Origin: a virus | Length of the DNA stretch: 20,815 nt | Reading direction: 5' to 3' (one strand) | IMG/VR virus record: IMGVR_UViG_3300043436_000762 | Location: 1-20,815 of that record | Shown: piece after piece, positions 2-18,932 of the stretch | Layout of the letters: every line of letters starts with the position of its first letter | Numbering within the stretch: position 1 is the stretch's first letter | Translations under genes and position numbers: made by a program | The notes under the pieces: generated by a model | Databases searched by the model: none | Told to the model about the DNA's origin: nothing | Seen by the model: the letters and a program-made list of their open reading frames with translations, nothing else

Positions 2-286
2 AGGGTATCAAATGAAAAGGCCAAATTGGTTACAAAACAGCGTGATCTTGCTATTGACAGTGGTAATCTCAAGTTGCGCCTCAAAGCGTCCTGCCCCATA
101 CAAGCCCCCACAGATTCCACAACTCCCGCAGGAGATAGTGGAGGAGAAGCACGAGCCGACCTTGACCCAGAGGTTGGAAAAGCTCTTTTCGCAATAGCCG
201 AGGAGGGTGATCGAGCAATAACCAAGCTGAACGCTTGTATCTCTCTTTATAACCAAGCACTTGAATCACAAAAGGAAATCAAATGA
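2..286 (+). CDS. Rz: Inner-membrane spanin, Rz-like, 5' partial
   Basis: The reading frame is open from the window edge and 94 residues are visible, so the start and the expected N-terminal membrane anchor lie upstream. The visible part contains LKLRLKASCP, an acidic patch (ADLDPEVGKAL) and a helical C-terminus. This is the usual layout of the periplasmic half of Rz/i-spanin proteins, in which a conserved R-x-(K/R)-A-x-C-P stretch is followed by an ALFAIAEEGDRAITKL-like helix. Known role of the family: with the outer spanin it joins inner and outer membranes and completes lysis. The stop overlaps the endolysin start by four bases (ATGA at 283-286). The o-spanin gene lies wholly inside this one in another frame, which strongly supports the call. 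The motif similarity is from memory, not from a search. Confidence 0.8.
   Translation, partial: RVSNEKAKLVTKQRDLAIDSGNLKLRLKASCPIQAPTDSTTPAGDSGGEARADLDPEVGKALFAIAEEGDRAITKLNACISLYNQALESQKEIK
12..197 (+). CDS. Rz1: Outer-membrane lipoprotein spanin, Rz1-like, nested in Rz
   Basis: Codes for 61 residues. After MKRPNWLQNS comes a hydrophobic stretch (VILLLTVVIS) ending in the lipobox I-S-S-C with Cys22, so it should be cut by signal peptidase II and lipidated. The mature part is short and proline-rich (PAPYKPPQIPQLPQ), typical of Rz1. It ends in a charged helix (LTQRLEKLF) that could pair with the i-spanin. A good ribosome binding site, GAGGG, precedes the ATG. The gene is fully embedded in the Rz frame, one of the two standard Rz/Rz1 arrangements. 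Small size, lipobox and nesting together make the call firm. Confidence 0.87.
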   Translation: MKRPNWLQNSVILLLTVVISSCASKRPAPYKPPQIPQLPQEIVEEKHEPTLTQRLEKLFSQ

Positions 287-747
287 ACCTGTCAGCAAAT
301 TTTACCCTCAAAGAACTAACAAAGTCAGACACAGCTACCAGACTGGGGCTGGACAACACACCTGATGATGAGGCTTTGGAGAACCTGAAGACTCTTTGCG
401 AGAAGGTGCTTCAGCCTGTTCGTGACCACTTTGGCAAGTCTGTAACCGTTAACTCTGGCTACCGTAGCCCTGAGTCAAATGCCGCTGTTGGTGGCTCTAA
501 GACTTCTGACCATTGCAAGGGTCAAGCCGCAGACATCGAGATTGATGGTGTTGCTAATCCCGATCTGGCGCAATGGATTATGGATAACCTTGACTACACT
601 CAACTTATCCTTGAGTTCTACGAGCAGGGTAAACCCTCAAGTGGGTGGGTTCATGTTAGCTATAACCCAGACAACTTGAAAAAGCAAGAACTGACAGCCG
701 TTAAGGTTGCGGGGAAGACTCAGTACTTGCAAGGACTACAGGCATAA
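283..747 (+). CDS. Endolysin, M15-type zinc peptidase (L,D- or D,D-peptidase)
   Basis: Codes for 154 residues with no signal peptide or added cell-wall binding domain, so it is a single-domain cytoplasmic endolysin that would need a holin (none seen here). Visible M15 hallmarks: SGYRS at 58-62, the zinc signature S75-D-H77 followed by G-Q-A-A-D84, glutamate E111 in LILEFY, and the last zinc histidine in GWVH at 121-124. H77, D84 and H124 are the expected zinc ligands. The family cuts peptidoglycan stem peptides. The ATG overlaps the Rz stop (ATGA), so lysis genes are translationally coupled, here in the order spanins then endolysin. The 3' end overlaps by 47 bases with the convergent small gene on the minus strand. 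Confidence 0.9.
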   Translation: MNLSANFTLKELTKSDTATRLGLDNTPDDEALENLKTLCEKVLQPVRDHFGKSVTVNSGYRSPESNAAVGGSKTSDHCKGQAADIEIDGVANPDLAQWIMDNLDYTQLILEFYEQGKPSSGWVHVSYNPDNLKKQELTAVKVAGKTQYLQGLQA

Positions 748-904
748 GCGGACGCTTGCAATAGTGTTTAGGGGTGAGGTGTTCATACAAGATCACCTCA
801 CCGCACTTCTGGCATAACCAAGCCGTACCCATTACGACATCAGTCTGGCGGTCACCTCTGACCCCTTTAGTTCTGCCATAGAAGGTGCGTATTTTGACTA
901 TCAC
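701..904 (-). CDS. Small zinc-binding protein of unknown function
   Basis: Codes for 67 residues from a GTG start. Residues C31, C34, H42 or H47 and C49 (CQKCG ... KHYC) form a plausible single zinc site. The start is chosen because GTGA at 901-904 overlaps the stop of the preceding 58-codon gene, the same coupling seen all along this minus-strand operon. It is the last gene of the operon and its 3' end runs 47 bases into the convergent endolysin gene. No family recognised. The C-terminal 20 or so residues are low in features, perhaps because this part is constrained by the overlapping endolysin. Confidence 0.55.
   Translation of the reverse strand: MIVKIRTFYGRTKGVRGDRQTDVVMGTAWLCQKCGEVILYEHLTPKHYCKRPLMPVVLASTESSPQP
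773..802. other. 9-base inverted repeat at the convergent gene junction
   Basis: GGTGAGGTG at 773-781 is the exact reverse complement of CACCTCACC at 794-802, with a 12-base loop. It lies 25 bases after the endolysin stop and inside the opposing zinc-protein gene. No run of T follows on either strand, so it is not a classic intrinsic terminator, but it could slow or stop transcription of the endolysin message. Confidence 0.35.
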
Positions 905-1077
905 TTTGCGGCTCTAGCCTTGCTGTAAGTTGTGAAGTTCTCACGCACCCTAAGACCCCTATTTTTAAGCTCTGTATTAGCCGCTTTAAGGGCTACTTCT
1001 TGACGTTTAGCCCTCTTATCTGTCTGCCACAAACTTGGTTCGTTAGTGGACTCAAATGCTGATTTAACTTTTTCCAT
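901..1077 (-). CDS. Small basic protein of unknown function (58 aa)
   Basis: The product begins MEKVKSAFESTNEPSLW and continues with a strongly basic helical stretch (DKRAKRQEVALKAANTELKN) ending in KARAAK. It is supported by its position in the chain: its ATG lies inside the 3' end of the preceding gene (14-base overlap) and its stop overlaps the next GTG start by four bases. There is no clear Shine-Dalgarno, so translation may depend on coupling. High Lys/Arg content would suit nucleic-acid binding, but there is no recognised domain and the function is unknown. Confidence 0.5.
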   Translation of the reverse strand: MEKVKSAFESTNEPSLWQTDKRAKRQEVALKAANTELKNRGLRVRENFTTYSKARAAK

Positions 1078-1243
1078 CTTTTGATTTGCTTTTTAGTGGG
1101 TGAATGCCAGCAGTCTCAGTGCGCCTCATTTGCTCTCTACGCTTTGAACCGTTGATTTTGCCAATGTTTATATAAGATAACTCTTTGTCCCTCGTCCAGA
1201 TTGATGCGCCAGAGAAGTCAAATGCGTTTGTTGGTGGGTTCAT
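1064..1243 (-). CDS. Small basic protein of unknown function (59 aa)
   Basis: The product begins MNPPTNAFDFSGASIWTRDKE and has a basic second half (GSKRREQMRRTE). The ATG overlaps the preceding stop by four bases (ATGA, 1240-1243) and has AGGGG seven bases upstream, so the start is well supported. No domain recognised. The acidic-aromatic N-terminus followed by an arginine-rich segment is compatible with a nucleic-acid-binding or host-interaction peptide, which is only a guess. Confidence 0.55.
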   Translation of the reverse strand: MNPPTNAFDFSGASIWTRDKELSYINIGKINGSKRREQMRRTETAGIHPLKSKSKDGKS

Positions 1244-1476
1244 TTCAAACCCCTGATGTAAATAGCAAAGCTGTGCAATGTGTCCTTGCCAAACCCTTCC
1301 ATCTTCAAGATGGCATCAGCCACTTCTTCAATCACTTGGCTCCTGTATGGGTTTAGGTCGCTATACAAGCCAAGACGTTCATTCTCATTGCGTATGGCTT
1401 GTAACACTGCTTGTTTACGCCACAGGCTTTGACGTTCAATGTCGTTGAATGCCTCGTCTTCTGGGTCTTCAATCAT
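1240..1476 (-). CDS. Conserved-looking small phage protein, unknown function (78 aa)
   Basis: Begins MIEDPEDEAFNDIERQSLWRK. The ATG at 1476 is preferred over an in-frame TTG at 1482 because AGGAG sits seven bases upstream of the ATG. It overlaps the previous gene by eight bases and the next by four. The DPEDEAFNDIE start is a pattern I associate with small genes in betaproteobacterial phages, from memory only. The sequence is predicted mostly helical, with no membrane segment and no cysteines. Function unknown. Confidence 0.65.
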   Translation of the reverse strand: MIEDPEDEAFNDIERQSLWRKQAVLQAIRNENERLGLYSDLNPYRSQVIEEVADAILKMEGFGKDTLHSFAIYIRGLK

Positions 1477-1687
1477 GACCAAACTCCTGTAGTTCGTTGA
1501 TGCGTTTGTAGAGCCTGAAGATGCGTTGCTCGTTGTAGTTCACCAAGGCTTGCGAGTACTCCACAGAAGTCTCAGCTTGCATCTTGGCGTGTTGCGCCTC
1601 GATGAGTTCCTTGTGAGCCACCTCCAATGGAGTCTTTGCTCTAAGCAAATCTTTGACGTATTTGATTGTTAAGTCTCGCCAGTTCAT
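1469..1687 (-). CDS. Small helical phage protein, unknown function (72 aa)
   Basis: Codes for MNWRDLTIKYVKDLLRAK followed by a long amphipathic helix (roughly residues 20-66) with many Ala, Glu, Gln and Lys residues and no glycine or proline breaks, so a coiled coil or helical hairpin is likely. The ATG overlaps the preceding stop by four bases (1684-1687). No enzymatic motif. Function not known. Confidence 0.65.
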   Translation of the reverse strand: MNWRDLTIKYVKDLLRAKTPLEVAHKELIEAQHAKMQAETSVEYSQALVNYNEQRIFRLYKRINELQEFGHD

Positions 1688-1932
1688 GCAACAGCCTTTT
1701 TAATTTGAGCCTTTGCGTCATCAAGAATCTTCTCAACTGACGCAATGAGTTCTTTGTTTGATTTTTGTGGTATTGGTTTTGGAGTCATCTTCACCCCTAG
1801 AACCCTACCCATTTCCATAGTCCGATCATCTTCAATCTTTTGGCAAAGATATTCACGCAACCACTTTGCACCACCAAGTTCTCTCCACTTTGCTTGCTGG
1901 CTTAATGTCAACTTCACACCTACGTTAATCAT
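1684..1932 (-). CDS. Small protein of unknown function, possible DNA-binding fold (82 aa)
   Basis: The N-terminus MINVGVKLTLS is a beta-strand-like segment followed by QQAKWRELGGAKWLREYLCQKIE, an arrangement of short strand plus two helices that resembles ribbon-helix-helix regulators. I cannot confirm that fold. The C-terminal half is lysine-rich and helical. The ATG overlaps the previous stop by four bases (1929-1932) and a purine-rich stretch (GAAAGAAGAA) precedes it. Function unknown. Confidence 0.6.
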   Translation of the reverse strand: MINVGVKLTLSQQAKWRELGGAKWLREYLCQKIEDDRTMEMGRVLGVKMTPKPIPQKSNKELIASVEKILDDAKAQIKKAVA

Positions 1933-2246
1933 TTCTTCTTTCGTTCAGTTACAAGAATAATTCTTTCAATCTTGCGGTCACTACCGCATCTGTATTGCAT
2001 TGCACTATTCCTAACCCACTGGTCACAAACTGGACATTTCACTATCTTTCTTCCCGCTCGTCCCGATTTACCAGATACAACGCAAACCCGATACACACGC
2101 AAATTCCCAATATCGAGCCGAAAATCCCTGCTAAGAAGACGTAAAGCACTGTTTCCAACATTTGATTTCTCCTTTTCTTCTGAATCAAAGTACATGAGAG
2201 CCAAGGCGCAAAGTACCGCAATAACAATGGCATTCCAGTACTTCAT
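1929..2246 (-). CDS. Small membrane protein with C-terminal zinc-like motif, unknown function
   Basis: Codes for 105 residues. One membrane helix near the N-terminus (AIVIAVLCALALMYF, about residues 6-20) is followed by a charged segment and a C-terminal Cys pattern C71-x2-C74 ... C87 (CPVCDQW ... YRCG) with a lysine-rich tail. Its ATG overlaps the preceding stop (2243-2246) and its stop overlaps the next ATG (1929-1932), so both ends fit the operon chain. Oddly, a second same-strand frame inside it encodes a very hydrophobic 39-residue peptide with a strong ribosome binding site. An in-frame GTG at 2042, touching the stop of that nested gene, could alternatively start a separate 37-residue zinc peptide. 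Which products are made is not settled by sequence alone. Confidence 0.5.
   Translation of the reverse strand: MKYWNAIVIAVLCALALMYFDSEEKEKSNVGNSALRLLSRDFRLDIGNLRVYRVCVVSGKSGRAGRKIVKCPVCDQWVRNSAMQYRCGSDRKIERIILVTERKKK
2042..2161 (-). CDS. Nested small membrane protein (39 aa)
   Basis: Codes for MLETVLYVFLAGIFGSILG, then ICVCIGFALYLV, then a charged tail NRDEREER. It is a single membrane helix with an acidic/basic cytoplasmic end. AAGGAG lies seven bases before the ATG, one of the best ribosome binding sites in this operon, which is the main reason to believe it. It is completely contained, in a different frame, within the 105-codon gene. The protein looks like small phage membrane proteins (holin-like or superinfection-exclusion-like), but nothing specific can be assigned. 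Confidence 0.5.
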   Translation of the reverse strand: MLETVLYVFLAGIFGSILGICVCIGFALYLVNRDEREER

Positions 2247-2509
2247 TTTGCGGATGCAATGACTTCAAGTTCAAGGTCTTTGATTCTGTCTTTGAGAATC
2301 TCCACCTCTTGCTCTAGCTTGGTAACCTTTTTCTCTAGCCGCTTGCGGCTCATAGACTCACCCTTTGACCAGCCAATCAAGGCGGCATCATCAGCCACCT
2401 TGGTGATTAGCTGGATGATGTCATTGCGAGACATGAAGCCACCAGCAATGTCCTTGGTTGGCGCAATGCGTGTTACCAGTTCTTCAAGTTCCTGTTTGAA
2501 TGTAGTCAT
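2243..2509 (-). CDS. Small coiled-coil protein, unknown function (88 aa)
   Basis: The start MTTFKQELEELV is chosen because its ATG overlaps the upstream stop (ATGA at 2506-2509) and GAGGG lies six bases before it. A longer in-frame version has no such support. The last 40 residues (about 48-84) are a heptad-like coiled coil rich in Lys, Glu, Leu and Ile (KRLEKKVTKLEQEVEILKDR). The N-terminal half contains DIIQLITKVADDAALIGW. It probably forms dimers or larger assemblies. Function unknown. Confidence 0.65.
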   Translation of the reverse strand: MTTFKQELEELVTRIAPTKDIAGGFMSRNDIIQLITKVADDAALIGWSKGESMSRKRLEKKVTKLEQEVEILKDRIKDLELEVIASAK

Positions 2510-2739
2510 GCTTCCCTCGCTTTCAACATTGAGTCTGCCATTTGATAAGAAGCCATAGAAATATCTTCTAACCAACCCTTGTGTTCTAAAAAATCACAAG
2601 GGTGATAGTTGTGCATCAACCCTTGCAAAGCCTTTGCCGCAAAGTAGTCACGCAATGTCATGCCGCCGTGAGGAACAATTCCTCCGCAATCAGAGCCTTT
2701 ATATTCAACTGTGTGTGGAAATGCTGGTGGGTTGTTCAT
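2506..2739 (-). CDS. Conserved-looking small phage protein, unknown function (77 aa)
   Basis: Begins MNNPPAFPHTVEYKG. It has the string GGMTLRDYFAAKALQGLM in the middle and ends AYQMADSMLKAREA-like (here SYQMADSMLKAREA). I recall this combination of an NPPAFP start, MTLRDYFAAKA and a MADxMLKAREA end in many phages of Proteobacteria as a hypothetical protein. The start at 2739 is set by a four-base overlap with the stop of a 29-codon gene, in preference to an in-frame ATG at 2751. Function unknown. Confidence 0.7.
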   Translation of the reverse strand: MNNPPAFPHTVEYKGSDCGGIVPHGGMTLRDYFAAKALQGLMHNYHPCDFLEHKGWLEDISMASYQMADSMLKAREA

Positions 2740-2825
2740 GAAGACCACCATGCCACAAGCAGAACAGCAAAGCCGATACCGATGGCGATAGCCGCTAGGA
2801 CATCAAGAAGTTTCTCATTTGTCAT
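2736..2825 (-). CDS. Very small membrane peptide (29 aa)
   Basis: Codes for MTNEKLLDVLA then a hydrophobic helix AIAIGIGFAVLLVAWWSS. GAGG lies seven bases before the ATG. The ATG overlaps the previous stop and the stop overlaps the next start, each by four bases, so it fills exactly the gap between two well-supported genes. That fit is the main evidence at this size. It is a single membrane helix with no soluble domain. Its role is unknown. Confidence 0.6.
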   Translation of the reverse strand: MTNEKLLDVLAAIAIGIGFAVLLVAWWSS

Positions 2826-3070
2826 ACTGATACCTCACTTAGTTGCAGAACTTCAATGATTGTGTTGTCATCCAAGTAGCGTCTATGACGCTCTTCATTT
2901 TTAAAATCCCAATCGTATTTGTTAAGATAAATCTGCTTATCGGATTTTCTCCACATCCAGCCAATGTGCTTGTAAATGGTCTTACCACCAACAATTTTGA
3001 ATGCAATATCAGTTGGTAATTTGTCATCTTCTGACATTATGTATAAATCAATCAGTGTCATTTGAGTCAT
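2822..3070 (-). CDS. Small protein of unknown function (82 aa)
   Basis: Three ATG codons lie in a row at 3076, 3073 and 3070. The third is preferred because GAGGAG is seven bases upstream of it and only one base from the first. The product begins MTQMTLIDLYIMSEDDKLP and is rich in aromatic and charged residues (GWMWRKSDKQIYLNKYDWDFKN), suggesting a small folded beta-rich domain. There are no cysteines or membrane segment. Its start overlaps the end of the 53-codon gene by 23 bases. Function unknown. Confidence 0.6.
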   Translation of the reverse strand: MTQMTLIDLYIMSEDDKLPTDIAFKIVGGKTIYKHIGWMWRKSDKQIYLNKYDWDFKNEERHRRYLDDNTIIEVLQLSEVSV

Positions 3071-3209
3071 CATCATTCTCCTCACAGAGTTCACAGGTTG
3101 GGTGGTCGGGGTCACGGCAATCTGGGTGAGCCGCAAGGTTTGACTGGTAGCGGCGGCGGTGGAAGTCCTCCGCTTTCATGTAGTCAAGGTCTGATTGGTC
3201 TAGTGGCAT
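3048..3209 (-). CDS. Small acidic zinc-knuckle-like protein (53 aa)
   Basis: Begins MPLDQSDLDYMKAEDFHRRRYQ. C31-x4-H36-x2-C39-x2-C42 (CRDPDHPTCELC) gives four potential zinc ligands in twelve residues, followed by an acid tail (EENDDDSNDTD). AAGGA is six bases before the ATG. It lies eight bases after the preceding gene and overlaps the next by 23 bases. Known families with such patterns bind nucleic acid or proteins; I do not recognise this one. Confidence 0.6.
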   Translation of the reverse strand: MPLDQSDLDYMKAEDFHRRRYQSNLAAHPDCRDPDHPTCELCEENDDDSNDTD

Positions 3210-3217
3210 GGTTGTCC

Positions 3218-3490
3218 TTAGTAATCTTGACCAGCACGAGCGGGTTGTGCGCCAAGGAATTGGGGGTTATAGGGTGAGTAGTAAACAAATGGGGTTGCCT
3301 TACGCTCGGCAAATTGAGTGACCCACTTTTGTTCTTGATCTGTCATGATGCAAGACAAGTCCATATCAATCCAAAAACCAACTTCATCACCACTGCAATC
3401 AACAATGTGAATGTCGCTAACACCTAATTGAATGGCTCGGCGTACTGTCTCTAAGAGTTCAAGTTTGTTAGTGAATGTGTAACGTGTCAT
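3218..3490 (-). CDS. Protein of unknown function (90 aa)
   Basis: Begins MTRYTFTNKLELLETVRRAI and includes GVSDIHIVDCSGDEVGFWIDMDL, an alternating strand-helix pattern suggesting a small alpha/beta domain. It ends in a tyrosine/proline-rich tail (FVYYSPYNPQF). AGGAG lies eight bases before the ATG. A 51-base gap separates it from the first gene of the operon. No family recognised. Confidence 0.65.
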   Translation of the reverse strand: MTRYTFTNKLELLETVRRAIQLGVSDIHIVDCSGDEVGFWIDMDLSCIMTDQEQKWVTQFAERKATPFVYYSPYNPQFLGAQPARAGQDY

Positions 3491-3541
3491 TTCAATTCTC
3501 CTGTTAGGTTGAAAGTGGAGGCCGTGGCCTCCTTGGGTTGA

Positions 3542-3739
3542 TTAAGTTGCTTTGCGCTCATCCATCTTGGCGTTAAATTCAAACTGTTTGCTTGAAGCGC
3601 ATTTGACACAACGAAACTGGCTAGGCTCTTGTTTGAAATCAGACCAGTTAACAGATATTGGAGTTCTGAGCATATTGCGTCCACAAGCTGTCTTTGATGC
3701 CCATCCTGTGCCAGACTTGTTGAGGTGTGTAACTTGCAT
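3542..3739 (-). CDS. Small zinc-binding protein, first gene of the minus operon (65 aa)
   Basis: Codes for MQVTHLNKSGTGWASKTACG ... RCVKC ... ERKAT. H5, C19, C44 and C47 are candidate zinc ligands, a layout I have seen in small unannotated phage proteins. AGGAG sits seven bases before the ATG. A longer same-strand frame here (3487-3804) lacks both this binding site and the cysteine pattern, so this frame is preferred. It is the promoter-proximal gene, facing the divergent HTH gene. Function unknown. Confidence 0.7.
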   Translation of the reverse strand: MQVTHLNKSGTGWASKTACGRNMLRTPISVNWSDFKQEPSQFRCVKCASSKQFEFNAKMDERKAT

Positions 3740-3869
3740 TTGAATCTCCTGTTTGTGTTGCTGATGTTGCCAATCATACAGAAGTTGATTAGGTAGTCAT
3801 ACAACTATTATTTAATCCCCCTCACTTCACTGGGTTATTTAATCAGGTGTTGGTTGACCATCCAATCAA
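3740..3869. promoter_or_regulatory. Divergent control region between the two early operons
   Basis: The 130 bases between the minus-strand mini-gene operon and the HTH gene must carry promoters for both. The plus strand has TTGATT at 3785-3790 followed after 15 bases by TATTAT, a weak -35/-10 match with a short spacer. The minus strand has TATGAT about 20 bases after TTGTAT. Neither is a good consensus, so the exact promoters are uncertain. The region also contains a repeated 10-mer listed separately. Confidence 0.45.
3808..3844. repeat. Two direct copies of TTATTTAATC, possible operator
   Basis: TTATTTAATC occurs at 3808-3817 and 3835-3844, starts 27 bases apart. They flank a pyrimidine-rich stretch in the divergent intergenic region, next to a gene for a phage-type HTH protein. 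Binding by that protein is inferred from position only. Confidence 0.4.
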
Positions 3870-4121
3870 ATGTCTCTAGAATCCATCCCCATGAACACAC
3901 AAACCATGCAACTTATTGATTCCATTAGGGAAAAGGCTGAAAAGGCTGGCTTCACCATCACTGATGTGGCTAGGCGAGCTGGTCTTGACCCCTCTCAGGT
4001 TAGCCGTTACGCCACTGGAAAGACCATACCACTGGTAACTTCCATCAAACGGCTAGAAGAATCGGTAGATTCCCTGATTCAGAGCCGCCTACAAGCCCTA
4101 CAAGGGGGTCAAAATGACTAA
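3870..4121 (+). CDS. Small HTH (XRE/Cro-like) transcription regulator
   Basis: Codes for 83 residues. A helix-turn-helix of the XRE type is clear at about 28-52: FTITDVARRAGLDPSQVSRYATGK, where TDVARRAGLDPSQVSRY is the turn and recognition helix. The C-terminus (LEESVDSLIQSRLQAL) is a probable dimerisation helix. The protein is too short for a CI-type repressor with a cleavage domain, so Cro-like control is more likely. The start could also be ATG at 3891 (76 residues); neither start has a good ribosome binding site, so the first is given. It heads the plus-strand replication operon, diverges from the mini-gene operon, and overlaps the resolvase gene by eight bases. It probably controls the region between the two operons. 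Confidence 0.8.
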   Translation: MSLESIPMNTQTMQLIDSIREKAEKAGFTITDVARRAGLDPSQVSRYATGKTIPLVTSIKRLEESVDSLIQSRLQALQGGQND

Positions 4122-4587
4122 GCGCACCTTGGGTATTGATGTTGGTCTTAATGGTGCTATCGCCTTGGTTCAGGACGGTGAGTTAATTGGTGTTGTAGAT
4201 ATGCCAACAGTCACCCTAGACCGCAATGGCAAAGCCAAGCGTCAGGTGTCAGTGCCTGAACTGGTAGACATCATCAAGCAGTTTGACCCGACAGATGTAT
4301 ATACAGAACGTGTTTTTGCTATGGCAGGGCAGGGGGTGACAAGCGTCTTCAGCTTCGGGCGTAGCCTTGGTGTTGTTGAGGGTGTGCTTGGCGCATTACG
4401 CATTAAAAACAGCCTAGTTACACCGCAAACATGGCAAAAGGGAATAGGCGTAACTGGCGGCAAAGATGGCTCAAGAGCCAGAGCAATGGAGTTGTTCCCT
4501 GACCAAACTGCACTGTTCAAGAGGGTCAAAGATGATGGCAGATCAGATGCCGCACTCATCGCATTGTGGGGGTCAAAGAATGGATGA
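4114..4587 (+). CDS. RuvC-like Holliday junction resolvase
   Basis: Codes for 157 residues, the usual RuvC size. The RNase H fold signature is visible: first strand LGIDVGLNGAIAL with D9, then TERVFAM with E65, and the last acidic pair in DDGRSDAALIA with D141/D145. FSFGRSLGVVEG at about 79-90 is the typical helix after the second catalytic residue. The family cuts four-way DNA junctions. In phages it resolves recombination and replication intermediates or debranches DNA before packaging. AGGGGG precedes the ATG, which overlaps the HTH stop by eight bases. Confidence 0.88.
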   Translation: MTKRTLGIDVGLNGAIALVQDGELIGVVDMPTVTLDRNGKAKRQVSVPELVDIIKQFDPTDVYTERVFAMAGQGVTSVFSFGRSLGVVEGVLGALRIKNSLVTPQTWQKGIGVTGGKDGSRARAMELFPDQTALFKRVKDDGRSDAALIALWGSKNG

Positions 4588-6609: not shown

Positions 6610-7698
6610 ATGGTAGACACTATGAATTTGATTGAATTTGGCGATTGCAGAGACACAATGCGCCGATGGAAAGACCAAGGAATCAAGGCGCAAACGTGCG
6701 TTACAAGCCCTCCTTACTATGGTTTGCGTGACTATGGAACAGCCAAGTGGGAAGGTGGTGATGCTGACTGCGAACACTCAATCTCCATGCCTACAAAATG
6801 GAATGACCCCAAACGTGGAACAAGTGTTTTAAGACCTGAAACAGCTCATCGAGGTGGTTCATCTACCAATTGCCACAAATGCGGCGCAACAAGAATTGAC
6901 TCTCAGCTTGGATTGGAAGAAACCCCAGAGCAATACATTGACGCAATGGTCGAGGTGTTCCGATGCGTTTGGGATGTGCTTGAAGACAATGGGACGCTAT
7001 GGCTGAACATTGGAGATAGTTACTCACGCCAAGGTGGACAGGCTAATGCTCAAACAATTGCAGATTGGAAGGATGTGCATAGAACCGCAATTAAGGCTAG
7101 TTCTGGGGCTGATGGTTGCAAGCCAAAAGACCTTATCGGCATCCCTTGGATGCTTGCCTTTGCATTGAGGGCTGACGGCTGGTATCTACGTCAAGACATC
7201 ATCTGGCACAAGCCAAACCCAATGCCTGAGTCGGTGCAAGACAGATGCACTAAGTCGCATGAATACATCTTCTTGATGAGCAAGTCGCAGAAGTATCACT
7301 ACGACCATGAAGCGATTAAAGAAGAGGCAATTAGTGCTGGCATGATCAGTGGTTCTTTTCAGGGTAGACAGGGTGGCGCTGAATACCACACACAAAGCGG
7401 CGGTGTTGGCAGTGAAGCAAAAGAATACCTAAACAAGAATAAGCGTAGTGTTTGGACGATACCTGTCAAACCTTACGAAGGCGCACATTTCGCAGTGTTC
7501 CCGCAAGACTTGATTGAACCTTGCATCCTTGCTGGCGCACCTGTTGGCGGTATAGTCCTTGACCCTTTCATGGGTAGCGGCACTACAGCTCAAGTAGCAC
7601 AGCAACTGGGTCGGCAGTACCTTGGCTGTGAACTGAACGAAGACTACAAACCCCTACAACAAAAAAGATTGCGCCAAATGTCTTTGGTGCTGGAGTAA
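6610..7698 (+). CDS. DNA methyltransferase (beta-class, adenine-N6 or cytosine-N4)
   Basis: Codes for 362 residues. The catalytic motif IV is TSPPYYGLRDYG at about 32-43. The AdoMet-binding motif I comes near the C-terminus as LDPFMGSGTT (317-326). The order IV before I marks the beta class. The SPPY form is common in N4-cytosine enzymes but also occurs in N6-adenine ones. An insert after motif IV has C54, H56, C88 and C91 (DCEH ... NCHKCG), a possible zinc knuckle. No restriction enzyme is adjacent, so it is an orphan enzyme, perhaps for escaping host restriction. ATG at 6622 (MNLIEFGDCRD) is an equally good start, and neither has a clear ribosome binding site. Confidence 0.9.
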   Translation: MVDTMNLIEFGDCRDTMRRWKDQGIKAQTCVTSPPYYGLRDYGTAKWEGGDADCEHSISMPTKWNDPKRGTSVLRPETAHRGGSSTNCHKCGATRIDSQLGLEETPEQYIDAMVEVFRCVWDVLEDNGTLWLNIGDSYSRQGGQANAQTIADWKDVHRTAIKASSGADGCKPKDLIGIPWMLAFALRADGWYLRQDIIWHKPNPMPESVQDRCTKSHEYIFLMSKSQKYHYDHEAIKEEAISAGMISGSFQGRQGGAEYHTQSGGVGSEAKEYLNKNKRSVWTIPVKPYEGAHFAVFPQDLIEPCILAGAPVGGIVLDPFMGSGTTAQVAQQLGRQYLGCELNEDYKPLQQKRLRQMSLVLE

Positions 7699-13433: not shown

Positions 13434-14834
13434 ATGGCAGATCAGATGCAACCAACACCAAGAAGCACCATACTGGGGTTGTTCTCTGATATTGTTAATT
13501 TGCCTTTGCAGTACATGAGTTCGCCTGAGAGGACTCAGCAGATGCAGGGGACTGCTCAGTTCCTTTACGAGACTGGAATCCCAAAGACGTTAGAACGGTT
13601 GTCCTATGGCGACTCGTTGTTCTCTGGGGCTGGAATGACATTGCGCCCAAGGGAAGAAACGATCAATGCGGCAATGAATGTTGCGCCCTTTGTTAAGCCA
13701 GCCGCTGTGATGGCTGGTCGTACAGGTAGAGCAGTCGGACGCATGGCTGGAGAAGAAATCAATGCCGCCATGACTGGTCAGCCTACAAGGTCATTGCTTG
13801 GTGCGATGACACCACAACCGATGCGTATTATTGAAAAGAATCCAGCTCCATTTGTTGTTAAACATGGAACAAATCAACCATTTGACGAGTTTAAGTCTGG
13901 AATGGGCGTAACTGCAAAGCACATTTATACGACACCAGAAGAGTATGCAAAAGATGCCGCAAAATATGGTGAAACATTAATAACTGCACAAGCATCACCC
14001 AAAAGTCTAATTGACTTCAGTTCAGAAGGCAAGCTAGACAAGCCAACCATAAATGCCTTAAAGAAGGCCGCAAAAGACGCAGGTATAACAGACCAATACT
14101 ATCCATTTGAGTCTTTTATGGATGATTTAATGTCTGGACAGTTGTACCAAAAAGGTGGTGGGTCAAGGACTCAGGATGCATTACTTTCGGAATTGTTTAC
14201 CAAATATCAGGCAGTCAAAATGCCAGATGCGGCAGTTGGGGGCGGCATTTCAAAAAGCGTTGTGTTCGAAAATCCTGAATTGTTGAAAATAGTTCCCGAA
14301 AATCCGACAATCACTTCATTGCCAGTTGAGCAGAGCATCAATGATTTCTCTTATAGAGGAAGCCACACCGCACCAAGTTCTGAATTCGGCGCACCATTGT
14401 ATGACTTGACTGGTGGTGGTCAGATGTATCCTGCTGATGTTTATTCTGCAAAAGCGGATCAGTATTATGGAAGTGGAAATATCAGGGCAGACCTTGAAGC
14501 CTTTAATCTAGCCAAACGAGTTCGTGGCAATCCTGATGCTGAAGTCACCATATATCGGGCAGTTCCCAAGAATGCCGACATTTCCAACATCAATGCTGGT
14601 GATTGGGTGACATTGACTAAGGATTACGCTAAGGGGCATGGCGAGTCTGTTTTGCGTGGTGACTACAAGATTCTTAGCCAAAAAGTCAAAGCCAAAGAAC
14701 TTTGGACAAATGCTGATTCCATTCAAGAGTTTGGCTATCAGCCTGAATCTTTGACTCAGCAAGTGCCAACTCCAATTGAAAACCCCACATTTACCGACCC
14801 CTTTGGAAATACAATCGGTTCATCTATAAGGTAA
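13434..14834 (+). CDS. Two-domain ADP-ribosyltransferase-like phage protein
   Basis: Codes for 466 residues. The N-terminal 130 residues (LGLFSDIVNLPLQYMSSPERTQQMQG and RPREETINAAMNVAPF) resemble a module I recall in front of varied toxin-like domains in phage proteins. Domain 1 (about 138-288) starts FVVKHGTNQPFDEF and has HIYTTPEEYAKDAAKYG and SKSVVFENPELLKI, as in the ADP-ribosyltransferases of polyvalent phage proteins, with H144 and Y165 in the H-Y-E positions. Domain 2 (about 330-435) has IYRAVP with R375, WVTLTKDYA with T393/T395, and SIQEFGYQP with E432, like R-S-E type enzymes with Thr for Ser. It lies between terL and portal, so it may be packaged and injected. Activity is not proven. 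Confidence 0.65.
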   Translation: MADQMQPTPRSTILGLFSDIVNLPLQYMSSPERTQQMQGTAQFLYETGIPKTLERLSYGDSLFSGAGMTLRPREETINAAMNVAPFVKPAAVMAGRTGRAVGRMAGEEINAAMTGQPTRSLLGAMTPQPMRIIEKNPAPFVVKHGTNQPFDEFKSGMGVTAKHIYTTPEEYAKDAAKYGETLITAQASPKSLIDFSSEGKLDKPTINALKKAAKDAGITDQYYPFESFMDDLMSGQLYQKGGGSRTQDALLSELFTKYQAVKMPDAAVGGGISKSVVFENPELLKIVPENPTITSLPVEQSINDFSYRGSHTAPSSEFGAPLYDLTGGGQMYPADVYSAKADQYYGSGNIRADLEAFNLAKRVRGNPDAEVTIYRAVPKNADISNINAGDWVTLTKDYAKGHGESVLRGDYKILSQKVKAKELWTNADSIQEFGYQPESLTQQVPTPIENPTFTDPFGNTIGSSIR

Positions 14835-14838
14835 CACT

Positions 14839-16881
14839 ATGGCAACAGACAAGTTAGAACAGAACCAGTTTTATCAGCCAACAGAGGCTGACAAAGAAAT
14901 CACTGCCTTTGTTGTTGACCACTGCCAACGGTGGCGTGATTACCGTGACGTTAACTTCCTCCCTGACTGGCTGGAATACGAGCGCATCTTCCGTGGTCAA
15001 TGGGCTTCTGAAGACAAGACTCGTGAATCAGAGCGTAGCCGTATCGTCACCCCCGCCACACAACAAGCCGTAGAAACCCGCCATGCTGAGATCATGGAAG
15101 CTATCTTCGGTCAAGGCGACTTCTTTGACATTGAAGACAATATCCAAGACATTGGCGGCAACCCCATTGATGTTGAGTTGATTAAGTCTCAACTGATGGA
15201 AGACTTCAAGAAAGACAAGATTAGGAAATCTATCGACCAGATTGAGTTGATGGCTGAAATCTATGGGACTGGCATTGGTGAGATTATTGTCTCGACAGAG
15301 AAGGAGTACATCCCTGCCACTCAGCCTATCCCGAACCAGCAGGGTCAAGCCGCTATTGGTGTGATTGAACGTGATCGTATTGCGGTCAAGATTACACCTG
15401 TGAACCCCAAGAATTTCTTGTTTGACCCCAATGGGACATCAATTGATGACTGTATGGGTGTGGCTGTAGAGAAGTATGTCTCGATTCACAAGGTTGTGCG
15501 TGGTATTGAGCGGGGTATCTACCGCAAAGTAGACATCACGCCCACCTATGAAGACACTGATTTGGAGCCTACACAGGAAGTTAGCCAGTATCAGGATGAA
15601 AAGGTGCTGTTGTTGACGTATTACGGCCTTGTGCCTCGTGAATACCTCAACAATATGCAAGAAAACAAGGATATTGTTGAGTTGTTTCCTGAAAACTCAG
15701 CCGCTGAAGACTACACCGACATGGTTGAGGCCATTGTGGTCATTGCCAACGATGGTTTGTTGTTGAAAGCTGAAGAAAACCCATACATGATGAAGGATAG
15801 ACCCATTCTGAGCTATCAGGATGACACTATTCCTAACCGTTTGTTGGGTCGTGGTACGGTTGAAAAGGCTTTCAATATGCAAAAAGCTATTGATGCCCAG
15901 ACTCGTAGCCACTTAGACTCTTTGGCGCTGACAACTAGCCCCATGATTGCTATGGATGCGACTCGTATGCCTAGAGGTGCTAAGTTTGAGGTCAAGCCCG
16001 GAAAAGCCATCCTCACAAATGGCGCACCAGCAGACATCATGATGCCATTCAAGTTTGGCGCTACTGACCCAAGCAACTTAGCGACTGCCCAAGCGTTTGA
16101 GCGTATGTTGTTGCAAGCAACAGGTACGCTTGACTCACAGGGCATGGTCAGCCAAGCCACTAGAGATGGTGGTGGTTCTGGAATGTCTATGGCTGTGGCC
16201 TCGATCATCAAGAAATACAAGCGTACATTGGTGAACTTCCAAGAAGATTTCTTGATTCCATTCATCAAGAAGGCGGCTTTTAGGTTCATGCAGTTTGACC
16301 CAGAGCGTTACCCTTCTGTGGACATGAACTTCATCCCAACGGCCACTTTGGGCATCATTGCTAGAGAGTATGAGCAACAGCAATTTATTGGTTTGTTGCA
16401 GACTTTGGGTGCTAATACGCCAGTTCTGCCGATCATCTTGAAGGGCATTGTGGCTAACTCTAGTTTGACCAATCGCATGGAGATGATTAAGGCTTTGGAC
16501 GAGATGATGAAGCCTAATCCTCAACAGCAAGAGATTGAGCAGATGCAAGCACAGTTGGCTATGCAAGCGGCACAAGCACAGATTGCGGTTCAGACTACTC
16601 AGGCTGAAGAAAACAAGGCCAATGCTGTGAAGTTGTCTATGGAAACTCAGTTGATGCCGCAAGAGATTCAGGCCAAGAACATGGCTTCTATCACCAAGAA
16701 CCTGCCTAATGAAGATATGGCATCTTCACAGGAATTCGACAAGCGGGTTAAGATTGCTGAACTGATGTTGAAAGAGGCAGACATCAAGAACAAGTCTAAG
16801 ATTGTCGAGTTGCAAATGGCTGACAAGCAAAGCAAGGTTGAGAATGACTTTTTAGACAGATTGTCTAGGGAACTCACATAA
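14839..16881 (+). CDS. Portal protein (P22-like, large podovirus type)
   Basis: Codes for 680 residues, within the range of P22-type portals. Typical parts: an N-terminal helix with YRDVNFLPDWLEYERIFRGQW, RSRIVTPATQQAVETRHAEIMEAIFG, a wing domain, the clip/stem region around RPILSYQDDTIPNRLLGRGTVEKAFNMQKAIDAQTRSHLDSLALTTSPM (given here in shortened blocks: RPILSYQDD, LLGRGTVEKA, AIDAQTRSHL) and ATGTLDSQGM. The last 130 residues are Gln/Ala/Lys-rich helices (QEIEQMQAQLAMQAAQAQ) that fit the coiled C-terminal barrel. It forms the dodecameric ring through which DNA enters and leaves. AAGG is eight bases before the ATG. Confidence 0.9.
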   Translation: MATDKLEQNQFYQPTEADKEITAFVVDHCQRWRDYRDVNFLPDWLEYERIFRGQWASEDKTRESERSRIVTPATQQAVETRHAEIMEAIFGQGDFFDIEDNIQDIGGNPIDVELIKSQLMEDFKKDKIRKSIDQIELMAEIYGTGIGEIIVSTEKEYIPATQPIPNQQGQAAIGVIERDRIAVKITPVNPKNFLFDPNGTSIDDCMGVAVEKYVSIHKVVRGIERGIYRKVDITPTYEDTDLEPTQEVSQYQDEKVLLLTYYGLVPREYLNNMQENKDIVELFPENSAAEDYTDMVEAIVVIANDGLLLKAEENPYMMKDRPILSYQDDTIPNRLLGRGTVEKAFNMQKAIDAQTRSHLDSLALTTSPMIAMDATRMPRGAKFEVKPGKAILTNGAPADIMMPFKFGATDPSNLATAQAFERMLLQATGTLDSQGMVSQATRDGGGSGMSMAVASIIKKYKRTLVNFQEDFLIPFIKKAAFRFMQFDPERYPSVDMNFIPTATLGIIAREYEQQQFIGLLQTLGANTPVLPIILKGIVANSSLTNRMEMIKALDEMMKPNPQQQEIEQMQAQLAMQAAQAQIAVQTTQAEENKANAVKLSMETQLMPQEIQAKNMASITKNLPNEDMASSQEFDKRVKIAELMLKEADIKNKSKIVELQMADKQSKVENDFLDRLSRELT

Positions 16882-18932
16882 TGGATATTCTTGACTTAGA
16901 GCGCAAGCTAGGTATTGAGAATATGACTGCTGATGAGCAGATGGCTTTGCTGACTGCGCTACAAAAGTCTGCTGAAGAAAAAGCCGCTAAAGCCAGAGAA
17001 GAAACCATAGGCAAGAGTGCTGAGTTGGTCATTCAAGGCTTAAAGCGCATCAAAACTGACCTTGAGAGTCGATTTGCAGACTTGAATTCCTCTATTCAAG
17101 ATCGTGCTTCTAACTTGCGTAATGGCATTGATGGCAAGGATGGACGAGATGGAAAAGATGGAAAGTCGGGTAGAGATGGACTCAAAGGCGATAAAGGTGA
17201 CGCTGGTCGAGATGGGCGTGATGGAGTGGATGGTGCTGACGGTGTGTCTGTTACCGATGCTCGCATTGATTTTGACGGTAGCCTTATTATCGTCTTGTCT
17301 ACTGGTCGTGAACTCAATGTTGGTGAAGTTGTTACTCCTGACCTTGCAGAACGCATCAAAGTCATTACTAATGGTGGCGGCACTTCTCAGTCTGTACTTG
17401 ATACTCTAGCTTCCCTCCAAACCCAGATTAACAACCTGATTCCTAGCCAATCAGGGAATTCTGGCAAGTTCTTAACTACCAATGGTTCTACCCTTTCATG
17501 GGGTTCTGCTGTTGGTGGTTTGAGTTACCAAGGAACATGGAATGCGTCTACAAACACTCCTACTCTCACTTCTAGTGTTGGGACAAACGGCTACTATTAT
17601 GTTGTTGATACTGCTGGTTCTACAAACCTAAACGGTATCACTGACTGGAAAGCAGGGGACTGGCTGATCTTCAATGGCTCTACTTGGCAGAAGATTGACC
17701 AAAGTTGGGCGATTGCTGGTGTAAACGACAACATCACATCAATGACTGGCATCACAGGTGGTATCTCATCACCTGACTTTATCCAGTTTGATACTGCCGC
17801 AACTGTTACAAATGCAACTGGTAAGTTGTATTACAACGCTGAAGATCAATTCCAAACATTGTCATTCCAGATGAATGGCAATCAGATTCAGCACATTGGT
17901 GAAGAACTGTATTATCGAGTCAAGTTATCTTCTGCGGCTACCAAAGGCCAAGTGTTGATGTTCACTGGTACTCTTGGTGCTAGTGGTGGATTGAGAGCCG
18001 CACCAGCTACAGGGTTGCAACCAGAACAAGCACACTATATTCTTGGTGTTGCTGGTGAAACTGGTTCTACAAATGATTGGATATTTGTCACGACCTTTGG
18101 CGAAGTCAAGTCAATCAATACGACTGGTGGGGCAGAGAGTTGGGCGCAAGGTGATGTTCTTTACTACAACCCATCTGTCACAGGTGGTTTGACCAAGACC
18201 AAGCCATCTGTGCCTAATGCTATTTGCATTGTGGCGGCTGTTGTTCATGTTGGCTCCTCAAATGGCGTATTGTTTGTTCGTCCTACCTATGGCTCTGTAT
18301 TGGGTGGAACAGATGGAAATGTAAATTTCACATCGTTAGCATCTGGCAACACCTTGATTTACGATGCTGTGGCTGGTGTTTGGGAAAATGCTTTCCTAAC
18401 TGATGGCACAGGTATCAGCATTACTGAGGGTGCGGGGACTATCACTATTACCAACTCTGCACCTGACCAAACAGTTGCATTGACTGGTGCGGGTACAACG
18501 TCTATCAGTGGTACATATCCCAACTTCACCATCACTTCAAATGATGCTTTCACAGGGACTGTGACTTCTGTCACTGGGACTTCTCCTGTTGCGTCTTCTG
18601 GTGGTACTACTCCAGCCATTTCATTGTCTGCAAGCTATGGCGACACTCAGAACCCTTATGCTTCTAAGACTGCAAACTATGTCTTAGCCTCACCTAATGG
18701 TTCTTCTGGAGTGCCTACATTCAGGGCGATTGTTGCGGCTGACATTCCTACGTTGAACCAGAACACTACAGGGACTGCCGCATCAACACCCAAGTTGCTG
18801 ACCACAAACTTTACAATTGAAGAATCTGGCGGTAAATTGCTGTTTAAGTATGGAGCAACGACAATTGCTTCTATGTCTTCAACTGGAGTCATCACTTCTG
18901 CAACAAACATTGTTGCAAATGGAACACCTTAA
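16881..18932 (+). CDS. Tail fibre protein with collagen-like repeat
   Basis: Codes for 683 residues. The ATG overlaps the portal stop by one base (TAATG). Residues 1-75 are helical and probably coiled (MDILDLERKLGIEN ... ESRFADLNSSIQ). Residues 82-121 hold about 13 Gly-X-Y triplets (GKDGRDGKDGKSGRDG), a collagen-like triple helix that would trimerise the fibre. Then comes a long Ser/Thr/Gly-rich beta region (for example NGITDWKAGDWLIFNGSTWQ and a TGTVTSVTGTSP repeat) usual in phage fibre shafts. There is no chaperone or peptidase domain at the end. It probably contacts the host surface. Its position directly after the portal is unusual, as fibres normally come after the capsid and tail genes. 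Confidence 0.82.
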   Translation: MDILDLERKLGIENMTADEQMALLTALQKSAEEKAAKAREETIGKSAELVIQGLKRIKTDLESRFADLNSSIQDRASNLRNGIDGKDGRDGKDGKSGRDGLKGDKGDAGRDGRDGVDGADGVSVTDARIDFDGSLIIVLSTGRELNVGEVVTPDLAERIKVITNGGGTSQSVLDTLASLQTQINNLIPSQSGNSGKFLTTNGSTLSWGSAVGGLSYQGTWNASTNTPTLTSSVGTNGYYYVVDTAGSTNLNGITDWKAGDWLIFNGSTWQKIDQSWAIAGVNDNITSMTGITGGISSPDFIQFDTAATVTNATGKLYYNAEDQFQTLSFQMNGNQIQHIGEELYYRVKLSSAATKGQVLMFTGTLGASGGLRAAPATGLQPEQAHYILGVAGETGSTNDWIFVTTFGEVKSINTTGGAESWAQGDVLYYNPSVTGGLTKTKPSVPNAICIVAAVVHVGSSNGVLFVRPTYGSVLGGTDGNVNFTSLASGNTLIYDAVAGVWENAFLTDGTGISITEGAGTITITNSAPDQTVALTGAGTTSISGTYPNFTITSNDAFTGTVTSVTGTSPVASSGGTTPAISLSASYGDTQNPYASKTANYVLASPNGSSGVPTFRAIVAADIPTLNQNTTGTAASTPKLLTTNFTIEESGGKLLFKYGATTIASMSSTGVITSATNIVANGTP

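Follow-up and report, generated by a model that had tools for sequence, protein, structure and literature searches.

The stretch of DNA analysed here (the window) is the 20,815-base record of an uncultivated virus, IMGVR_UViG_3300043436_000762, which is classed as linear. From position 3739 down to 701 its minus strand bears a chain of small genes made of 14 tiling open reading frames (ORFs), the first being g1 (3739-3542) and the last g14 (904-701), with a further ORF, g8b, nested inside g8. Two features of this chain are additions to what an earlier note on the same DNA had described: g8 and g8b form, as judged from the comparison of homologues, a dual-coding pair, and g2 ends in a C-terminal tail that is shared with otherwise unrelated small proteins.

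We compared the chain with more than 150 related contigs and counted gene content in 50 distinct syntenic regions, one of which is the window. Endolysin and RuvC served as queries for the loci, which were therefore not chosen on the chain itself. Below, L numbers denote individual related loci, a head is the variable part of a protein that can carry the tail, and the omega-like value is the parsimony-based ratio N/S. The features of the chain are:

3773-3800, minus: chain promoter, ATGACT-16-TATGAT (after the relatives' conserved TTGAC[TA]-16-TATGAT)
3542-3739, minus: g1, 65 amino acids (aa), CxxC-containing head, tail-less here and tailed in L256 and L429; omega-like 0.25
3491-3541, minus: g1-g2 spacer with a GC-rich inverted repeat (GGAGGCC ACGGCCTCC) and a AACAGGAGAATTGAA leader (from the sequence)
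3218-3490, minus: g2, 90 aa, variable head and constant 22-aa C-terminal tail (YYSPYNPQFLGAQPARAGQDY; tail at about 3221-3286; tail pattern scans)
3048-3209, minus: g3, 53 aa, CRDPDHPTCELCEE, zinc-type motif; omega-like 0.33
2822-3073, minus: g4, 79-83 aa by the start used, head tailed in L033, L040 and L130; omega-like 0.30
2736-2825, minus: g5, 29 aa, single-transmembrane (TM) peptide; omega-like 0.31
2506-2739, minus: g6, 77 aa, GMTLRDYFAAKA protein, PHROG 2201 (unknown function; 4.5e-20); omega-like 0.43
2243-2509, minus: g7, 88 aa, C-terminal coiled coil; core, 50/50 relatives (gene-content survey)
1929-2246, minus: g8, 105 aa, N-terminal TM helix, linker, beta segment and C-terminal zinc-ribbon-like CPxC...C (homologues and model)
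2042-2161, minus: g8b, 39-aa single-TM peptide inside g8 in +1, AGGAG ahead of its ATG; omega-like 0.44
1929-2042, minus: possible internal GTG start (TAGTGA / GAGTGA) at the g8b stop, hypothetically yielding a free zinc ribbon (GTG in 50/50 relatives)
1684-1932, minus: g9, 82 aa, accessory, 5/50 (survey)
1469-1687, minus: g10, 72 aa, 36/50 (survey)
1240-1476, minus: g11, 78 aa, 33/50 (survey)
1064-1243, minus: g12, 59 aa, basic, 20/50 (survey)
901-1077, minus: g13, 58 aa, basic, 18/50 (survey)
701-904, minus: g14, 67 aa, GTG start, CxxC...H/C zinc-type motif; core, 49/50 (survey)

The earlier note had read this region as one tightly coupled operon of about 15 mini-genes, 29 to 105 codons long and without recognisable function, and most of that description held. 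There are 14 tiling genes and one nested gene, their lengths run from 29 aa (g5) to 105 aa (g8), and the zinc-type, membrane and coiled-coil content it listed is supported, as is its reading as one operon of small genes, which prove to be real and have no recognisable function. Its statement that nearly every junction is an ATGA or GTGA overlap was too strong: 8 of the 13 junctions are 4-nucleotide (nt) overlaps of this type and 11 of 13 overlap at all, the remainder being three longer overlaps (8, 14 and at least 14 nt) and two gaps (g1/g2, 51 nt; g2/g3, 8 nt). The g4 protein has 79 aa when read from 3061 to 2822, with further in-frame ATGs at 3070, 3073 and 3076, and the 3′ end of g14 shares 47 nt (701-747) with the convergent endolysin gene.

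The omega-like values were 0.20-0.44 for all 16 chain ORF segments (up to 91 unique homologues per gene, with few sequences behind those of g2 (4), g9 (6), g4 (10) and g1 (12)) and 0.12-0.22 by the same parsimony measure for the endolysin, helix-turn-helix (HTH), RuvC and exonuclease genes. Because the values are this low throughout, we conclude that the chain ORFs are protein-coding genes under purifying selection and not chance ORFs. The interval 3740-3869, from which the earlier note had expected early transcription, does hold a promoter (3800-3773, minus strand). Promoter conservation was examined in the main HTH-g1 interval, where a sigma70-type TTGAC[TA]-16-TATGAT on the chain strand is present in 118 of 126 unique relatives, against 0.58 expected from shuffles. 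A perfect dyad, TTGACTA-N2-TAGTCAA, overlaps the -35 box in 37 of these relatives and may serve the divergent HTH protein as its operator.

Scans of representative chain proteins against Pfam, PHROGs and PADLOC (the models of the last being for defence, not anti-defence) gave no functional assignment and almost only families of unknown function. PDB sequence searches with g2 and g8 gave nothing significant, and no cultured relatives of g7, g8 or g14 were found.

The conserved core, the variable front and the constant tail

When gene content was compared across related phages, as the earlier note had suggested, a variable front and a conserved core emerged, a pattern consistent with an accessory early locus. 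The genes g7, g8 and g8b are present in 50/50 syntenic regions and g14 in 49/50, while homologues of g1 and g2 occur in 5/50, of g4 in 9/50 and of g9 in 5/50; clustering of the ORFs across the relatives gave 54 families, of which 21 are singletons. The promoter-proximal end is thus hypervariable and the distal end is core, which we read as a section of swappable cassettes followed by conserved genes. One 41,153-base contig, 3300028025_001978, holds two different RuvC/HTH/chain loci (L121 and L127), each with a tailed gene, and represents either two phages joined or a real duplication.

The C-terminal end of g2 reads ..APYNPQFLGAQPARAGQDY, written in full ...YNPQFLGAQPARAGQDY, and comprises 22 residues. 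Scans of 2.9 million viral contigs with short DNA patterns, the matches being translated, recovered 88 unique proteins with this tail, and their heads fall into 24 mutually unrelated families (blastp, E<0.01). Across the 2.9 million contigs there were just five other occurrences of the core tail motif, all chance-like. The patterns impose QFLGAQPA or EFLGAQPA and the filter required the final Y only; nevertheless, the N two residues before the Q/E and the final D-Y are invariant (100%), although the last two patterns imposed none of them. The element N..F.GAQPA stands 6-15 residues ahead of the invariant DY-stop, and the tail end reads RAG[EQ]DY-stop, in which R and G vary. Beneath the constant residues the codons vary synonymously; for instance, L258 differs at many third positions and encodes the same protein. 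That the residues are kept while the codons diverge indicates that selection acts on the protein. The alanine at position 12 of the tail is encoded by GCA in 48/48 unique tails (in the window's g2, within 3221-3286), while several codons are used at the other alanine positions.

The same heads occur with and without the tail, which joins just where the tail-less form ends. For instance, the window's g1 ends in KMDERKAT-stop and its counterpart in L256 continues as KMDAKKAI-SFQHNAPYNPQFLGAQPARAGEDY; similarly, L033, L040 and L130 have g4-type heads with the tail. The tail occurs once in most contigs and twice in L402 and one further contig, and it extends to lineages whose HTH and RuvC proteins are only 43-57% identical to those of the window. 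Of 85 tailed genes, 34 have a GC hairpin leader in front of them (1.2% in shuffled sequences), and the g1-g2 spacer of the window contains one of the same kind. Directly behind the tail stop there is often a ribosome-binding site (RBS) or a start codon, and some tails are followed by a hairpin spacer instead. A rule by which only the last head of an array would carry the tail was dropped, since a spacer and more genes come after several of the tails.

Tail-less heads often end in -VAA, -VTA, -KAA or -AAA (e.g., the 3′ end of the window's g1, 3542-3550), which GCATGA overlaps with the next gene explain in part. Tail presence showed no correlation with other chain gene families beyond the head families themselves. 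Annotated phage records gave no match to the tail, and the single plasmid match (E 7) is a chance one. No description of such a tail was found in the open-access literature searched, subscription papers being outside its scope; novelty was judged against that literature and the collections searched.

The nested pair g8/g8b

The g8 frame (2246-1929) is open right across g8b (2161-2042) in all 50 regions and in 81/81 unique g8 homologues. When g8b was evolved neutrally along the tree without a constraint on g8, the g8 frame stayed open in all leaves in 0 of 1200 simulations, and about 40% of the leaves gained stops on average. In the controls (g7, g10, g11, g14, endolysin, HTH and RuvC), alternative frames are closed in essentially all sequences and stop-creating changes occur at a normal rate. 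In g8b/g8 such changes are depleted (S* 0.34 and N* 0, versus S* of about 2-5 in most controls). Moreover, the ratio of g8b-silent, g8-altering changes to doubly silent ones, SN/SS, was 0.36 (95% confidence interval 0.22-0.60), the controls at the same offset lying mostly at 0.6-2.3, with g3 at 0.43. A four-fold-site comparison was indecisive owing to mosaicism and codon permutation was weak, and tree-based tests were used instead. On the strength of the open frames, the depleted stops, SN/SS and the simulations, we conclude from these alignments that g8/g8b is a dual-coding pair, both frames of which are kept under purifying selection.

Which of the two genes came first? In the more distant contigs L147, L151, L155 and L156, a stand-alone g8b-like peptide (best match E 6e-06) occupies the same place behind a different upstream gene and the g8 frame is closed; g8b is thus probably the older gene, over which g8 was printed.

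The AlphaFold model of g8 is of modest confidence (mean pLDDT, predicted local distance difference test, 66) and consists of an N-terminal TM helix, a linker modelled with low confidence and an end rich in beta structure; a fold search with it gave no match below E 1. Among relatives, the C-terminal ribbon of g8 occurs in interchangeable long and short forms. In L103 and L107 the zinc-ribbon end is swapped between otherwise similar genes directly behind the g8b stop. The GTG that overlaps this stop in 50/50 relatives could start a free zinc ribbon. We also considered g8b as an Rz1-type spanin partner and rejected this, because the g8b alignment has a TM segment and no lipobox and because g8b lies outside the lysis cassette, on the opposite strand; an Rz-like spanin (12-197, plus strand) already belongs to that cassette.

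Flanking genes

The chain lies between the M15 endolysin and Rz-like spanin (plus strand) on one side and an operon of HTH, RuvC-like and exonuclease genes (plus strand) on the other:

12-197, plus: Rz-like o-spanin, lysis cassette (profile match)
283-747, plus: M15-type endolysin, convergent flank of the chain (phrog_894, 3.1e-48)
3870-4121, plus: divergent HTH regulator, candidate repressor for the intergenic region common to both operons (phrog_3, 2.9e-06)
4114-4587, plus: RuvC-like Holliday junction resolvase, which opens the divergent replication operon (phrog_1770, 6.9e-30)

Terminase, portal and structural genes fill the right part of the window. No annotated near relative of the window was found, and its portal has remote matches alone (20-25% identity), to HTVC/CRP-type and other aquatic phages. 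A DNA methyltransferase (6610-7698, plus) differs from its neighbouring genes in the window in having matches of about 70-80% DNA identity in very different phages, and is probably mobile. A 466-aa ORF between terminase and portal (13434-14834, plus) has a C-terminal part (VTIYRAVPKNADISNINAGDWVTLTKDYAKGHGES) that by eye resembles an ADP-ribosyltransferase-type domain, and a structural gene (16881-18932, plus) contains a collagen-like GxY repeat stretch (GKDGRDGKDGKSGRDGLKGDKGDAGRDGRDG...). The window has no Rfam match.

The proposed early operon and its rival explanations

We propose, with a probability of roughly 0.6, that the chain serves an uncultivated lineage of tailed phages as their leftward early operon, with a swappable front section and a conserved core that includes a dual-coding pair. 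Host RNA polymerase would probably transcribe it, early in infection as we infer, from the one sigma70-type promoter in the interval common with the divergent HTH gene, and the overlapping genes would be translated as a coupled series. In the exchange section, which would run from g1 to roughly g6, phages would trade small effector heads with one another, apparently through homologous recombination in the constant sequences on either side: upstream a hairpin/RBS leader and, in one gene per genome, the 22-residue C-terminal tail at the other end. For the tail itself we consider a docking or address peptide the most likely role, in which it would bring alternative heads to one common partner. 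In the core (g7, g8/g8b, g10, g11 and g14), the membrane/zinc protein g8 and the single-TM peptide g8b would be made from the same DNA. Our fuller picture is more tentative, and we would give it somewhat less than even odds: a plug-in effector system in which a fixed C-terminal peptide (a docking tag or a ribosome-acting regulator) sits on at least 24 unrelated small heads in one early slot, the cassettes being exchanged between phages, upstream of the core with its dual-coding membrane/zinc pair. A host-takeover or anti-defence function of the chain is plausible, and anti-defence would be a reasonable role for the hypervariable, putatively early heads.

Several points weigh against this proposal. 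No g8 or terminase relatives that would link the phage to a prophage or host were found in GTDB genomes. The contigs compared are related and mosaic, so that the numbers counted do not stand for independent events, and the trees are blurred by recombination. The window itself has a degenerate form of the promoter (ATGACT), and no more than 37/126 relatives have a perfect operator dyad. As to the tail, QFLGAQPA was fixed by the search patterns and the omega of that stretch is therefore biased low, blastp may miss remote homology among the head families, and only 17/50 syntenic relatives have the tail, from which it follows that it is dispensable. As to the pair, the amino-acid constraint on the g8 frame in the overlap is moderate and most g8b-silent changes still alter g8.

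Could the chain be no more than an ordinary hypervariable early accessory region, a set of small ORFs of mixed origin in which the pair and the tail merely reflect shared ancestry and mosaicism? Phages commonly have early clusters of accessory genes without known function, and the front slots here are indeed hypervariable. However, shared ancestry leaves unexplained both a near-invariant 22-aa end on 24 unrelated heads and the openness of the g8 frame against neutral expectation, and we regard this explanation as unlikely.

Similarly unlikely, in our judgement, is that the tail is a regulatory nascent peptide, which would act in the ribosome exit tunnel, slow termination at its DY-stop and so control the next gene, the head being irrelevant. 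The spacing of the invariant N..F.GAQPA from the invariant DY-stop, the interchangeable heads and the RBS or start that often comes right after the stop would all suit such a role, and known arrest peptides do pair a C-terminal motif with unrelated N-termini (PMC10987492). Proline is, however, essential in RAPP/RAGP-type arrest (YwcI P91A; PMC10987492), whereas no proline follows the RAG of the tail, whose R and G vary; in addition, some tails have a hairpin spacer and not a start behind them, and the same downstream genes are found in tail-less genomes.

A little less likely still is that the tail is a mere homology anchor, a hitch-hiking coding end that serves head-swapping recombination. 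The heads are flanked by a constant leader and a constant tail, and some codons are fixed (GCA at Ala12), yet an anchor would not account for residues that are kept while the codons diverge, as in L258. Least probable is that g8 is not a protein, its frame being open by chance and the real genes being g8b, a short ORF for the N-terminal TM segment and, starting at the GTG, an ORF of its own for the zinc ribbon: this GTG does overlap the g8b stop throughout and the probability of an open frame given the g8b protein is 0.05-0.44 per sequence, but the 81/81 open frames, the 0/1200 simulations, the depleted stop-creating changes and the SN/SS of 0.36 all speak against it.

Small early phage proteins are a main source of host-takeover and anti-defence functions and are nearly impossible to find by homology. 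The constant tail, which suggests a common partner, provides a sequence handle for drawing such proteins from metagenomes, as the 88 found via short DNA patterns illustrate. Likewise, the nested pair provides a tailed-phage example of dual coding that is deeply sampled and backed by statistical tests, and sister lineages with one of the two genes alone make the origin of the overprinted gene traceable.

Known systems resemble the chain in part. In lambda, Rz1 is nested in Rz. The phiX174 gene E is an internal overlap in D (PMC8227390). Both pairs share with g8b/g8 a small membrane-type protein encoded wholly inside another gene in +1; in contrast to them, g8b lacks a lipobox and its position is not that of a lysis gene, and g8 has a zinc-ribbon-like end. 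In relatives with the long form, that end matches the Ogr/Delta (PF04606) and NrdR (PF22811) ribbons at 7.4e-06 and 6e-05, respectively; PF04606 matches at E<1 in 8/37 g8 homologues (best 7.4e-06), and the short-form g8 of the window has no significant match. Unlike those proteins, g8 has its ribbon fused to a TM segment, and nothing here marks it as a late activator or an NrdR repressor.

The tail is comparable to the arrest peptides SecM, ApdA, ApdP and YwcI (PMC10987492) in having a constant C-terminal motif, unrelated N-termini and a gene directly downstream, but it lacks the RAPP/RAGP-type proline and no Sec/YidC gene follows. With polymorphic toxins it shares the principle of one constant part and many exchangeable parts in one slot, although here the constant part is a 22-aa C-terminus, the variable part is N-terminal and no toxin or immunity gene was recognised. 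The PeSL cassettes of T4-type phages, reportedly described by Arbiol in 2010 and Comeau in 2014 (both cited in PMC4503421), are like the exchange section in that small early ORFs are shuffled between phages with stem-loops in intergenic leaders, the counterpart here being the hairpin at 34/85 tailed genes. The phages studied here are, however, not T4-type (portal 20-25% to HTVC/CRP-type), and the element that stays constant in their cassettes is a protein-coding tail and not just non-coding DNA.

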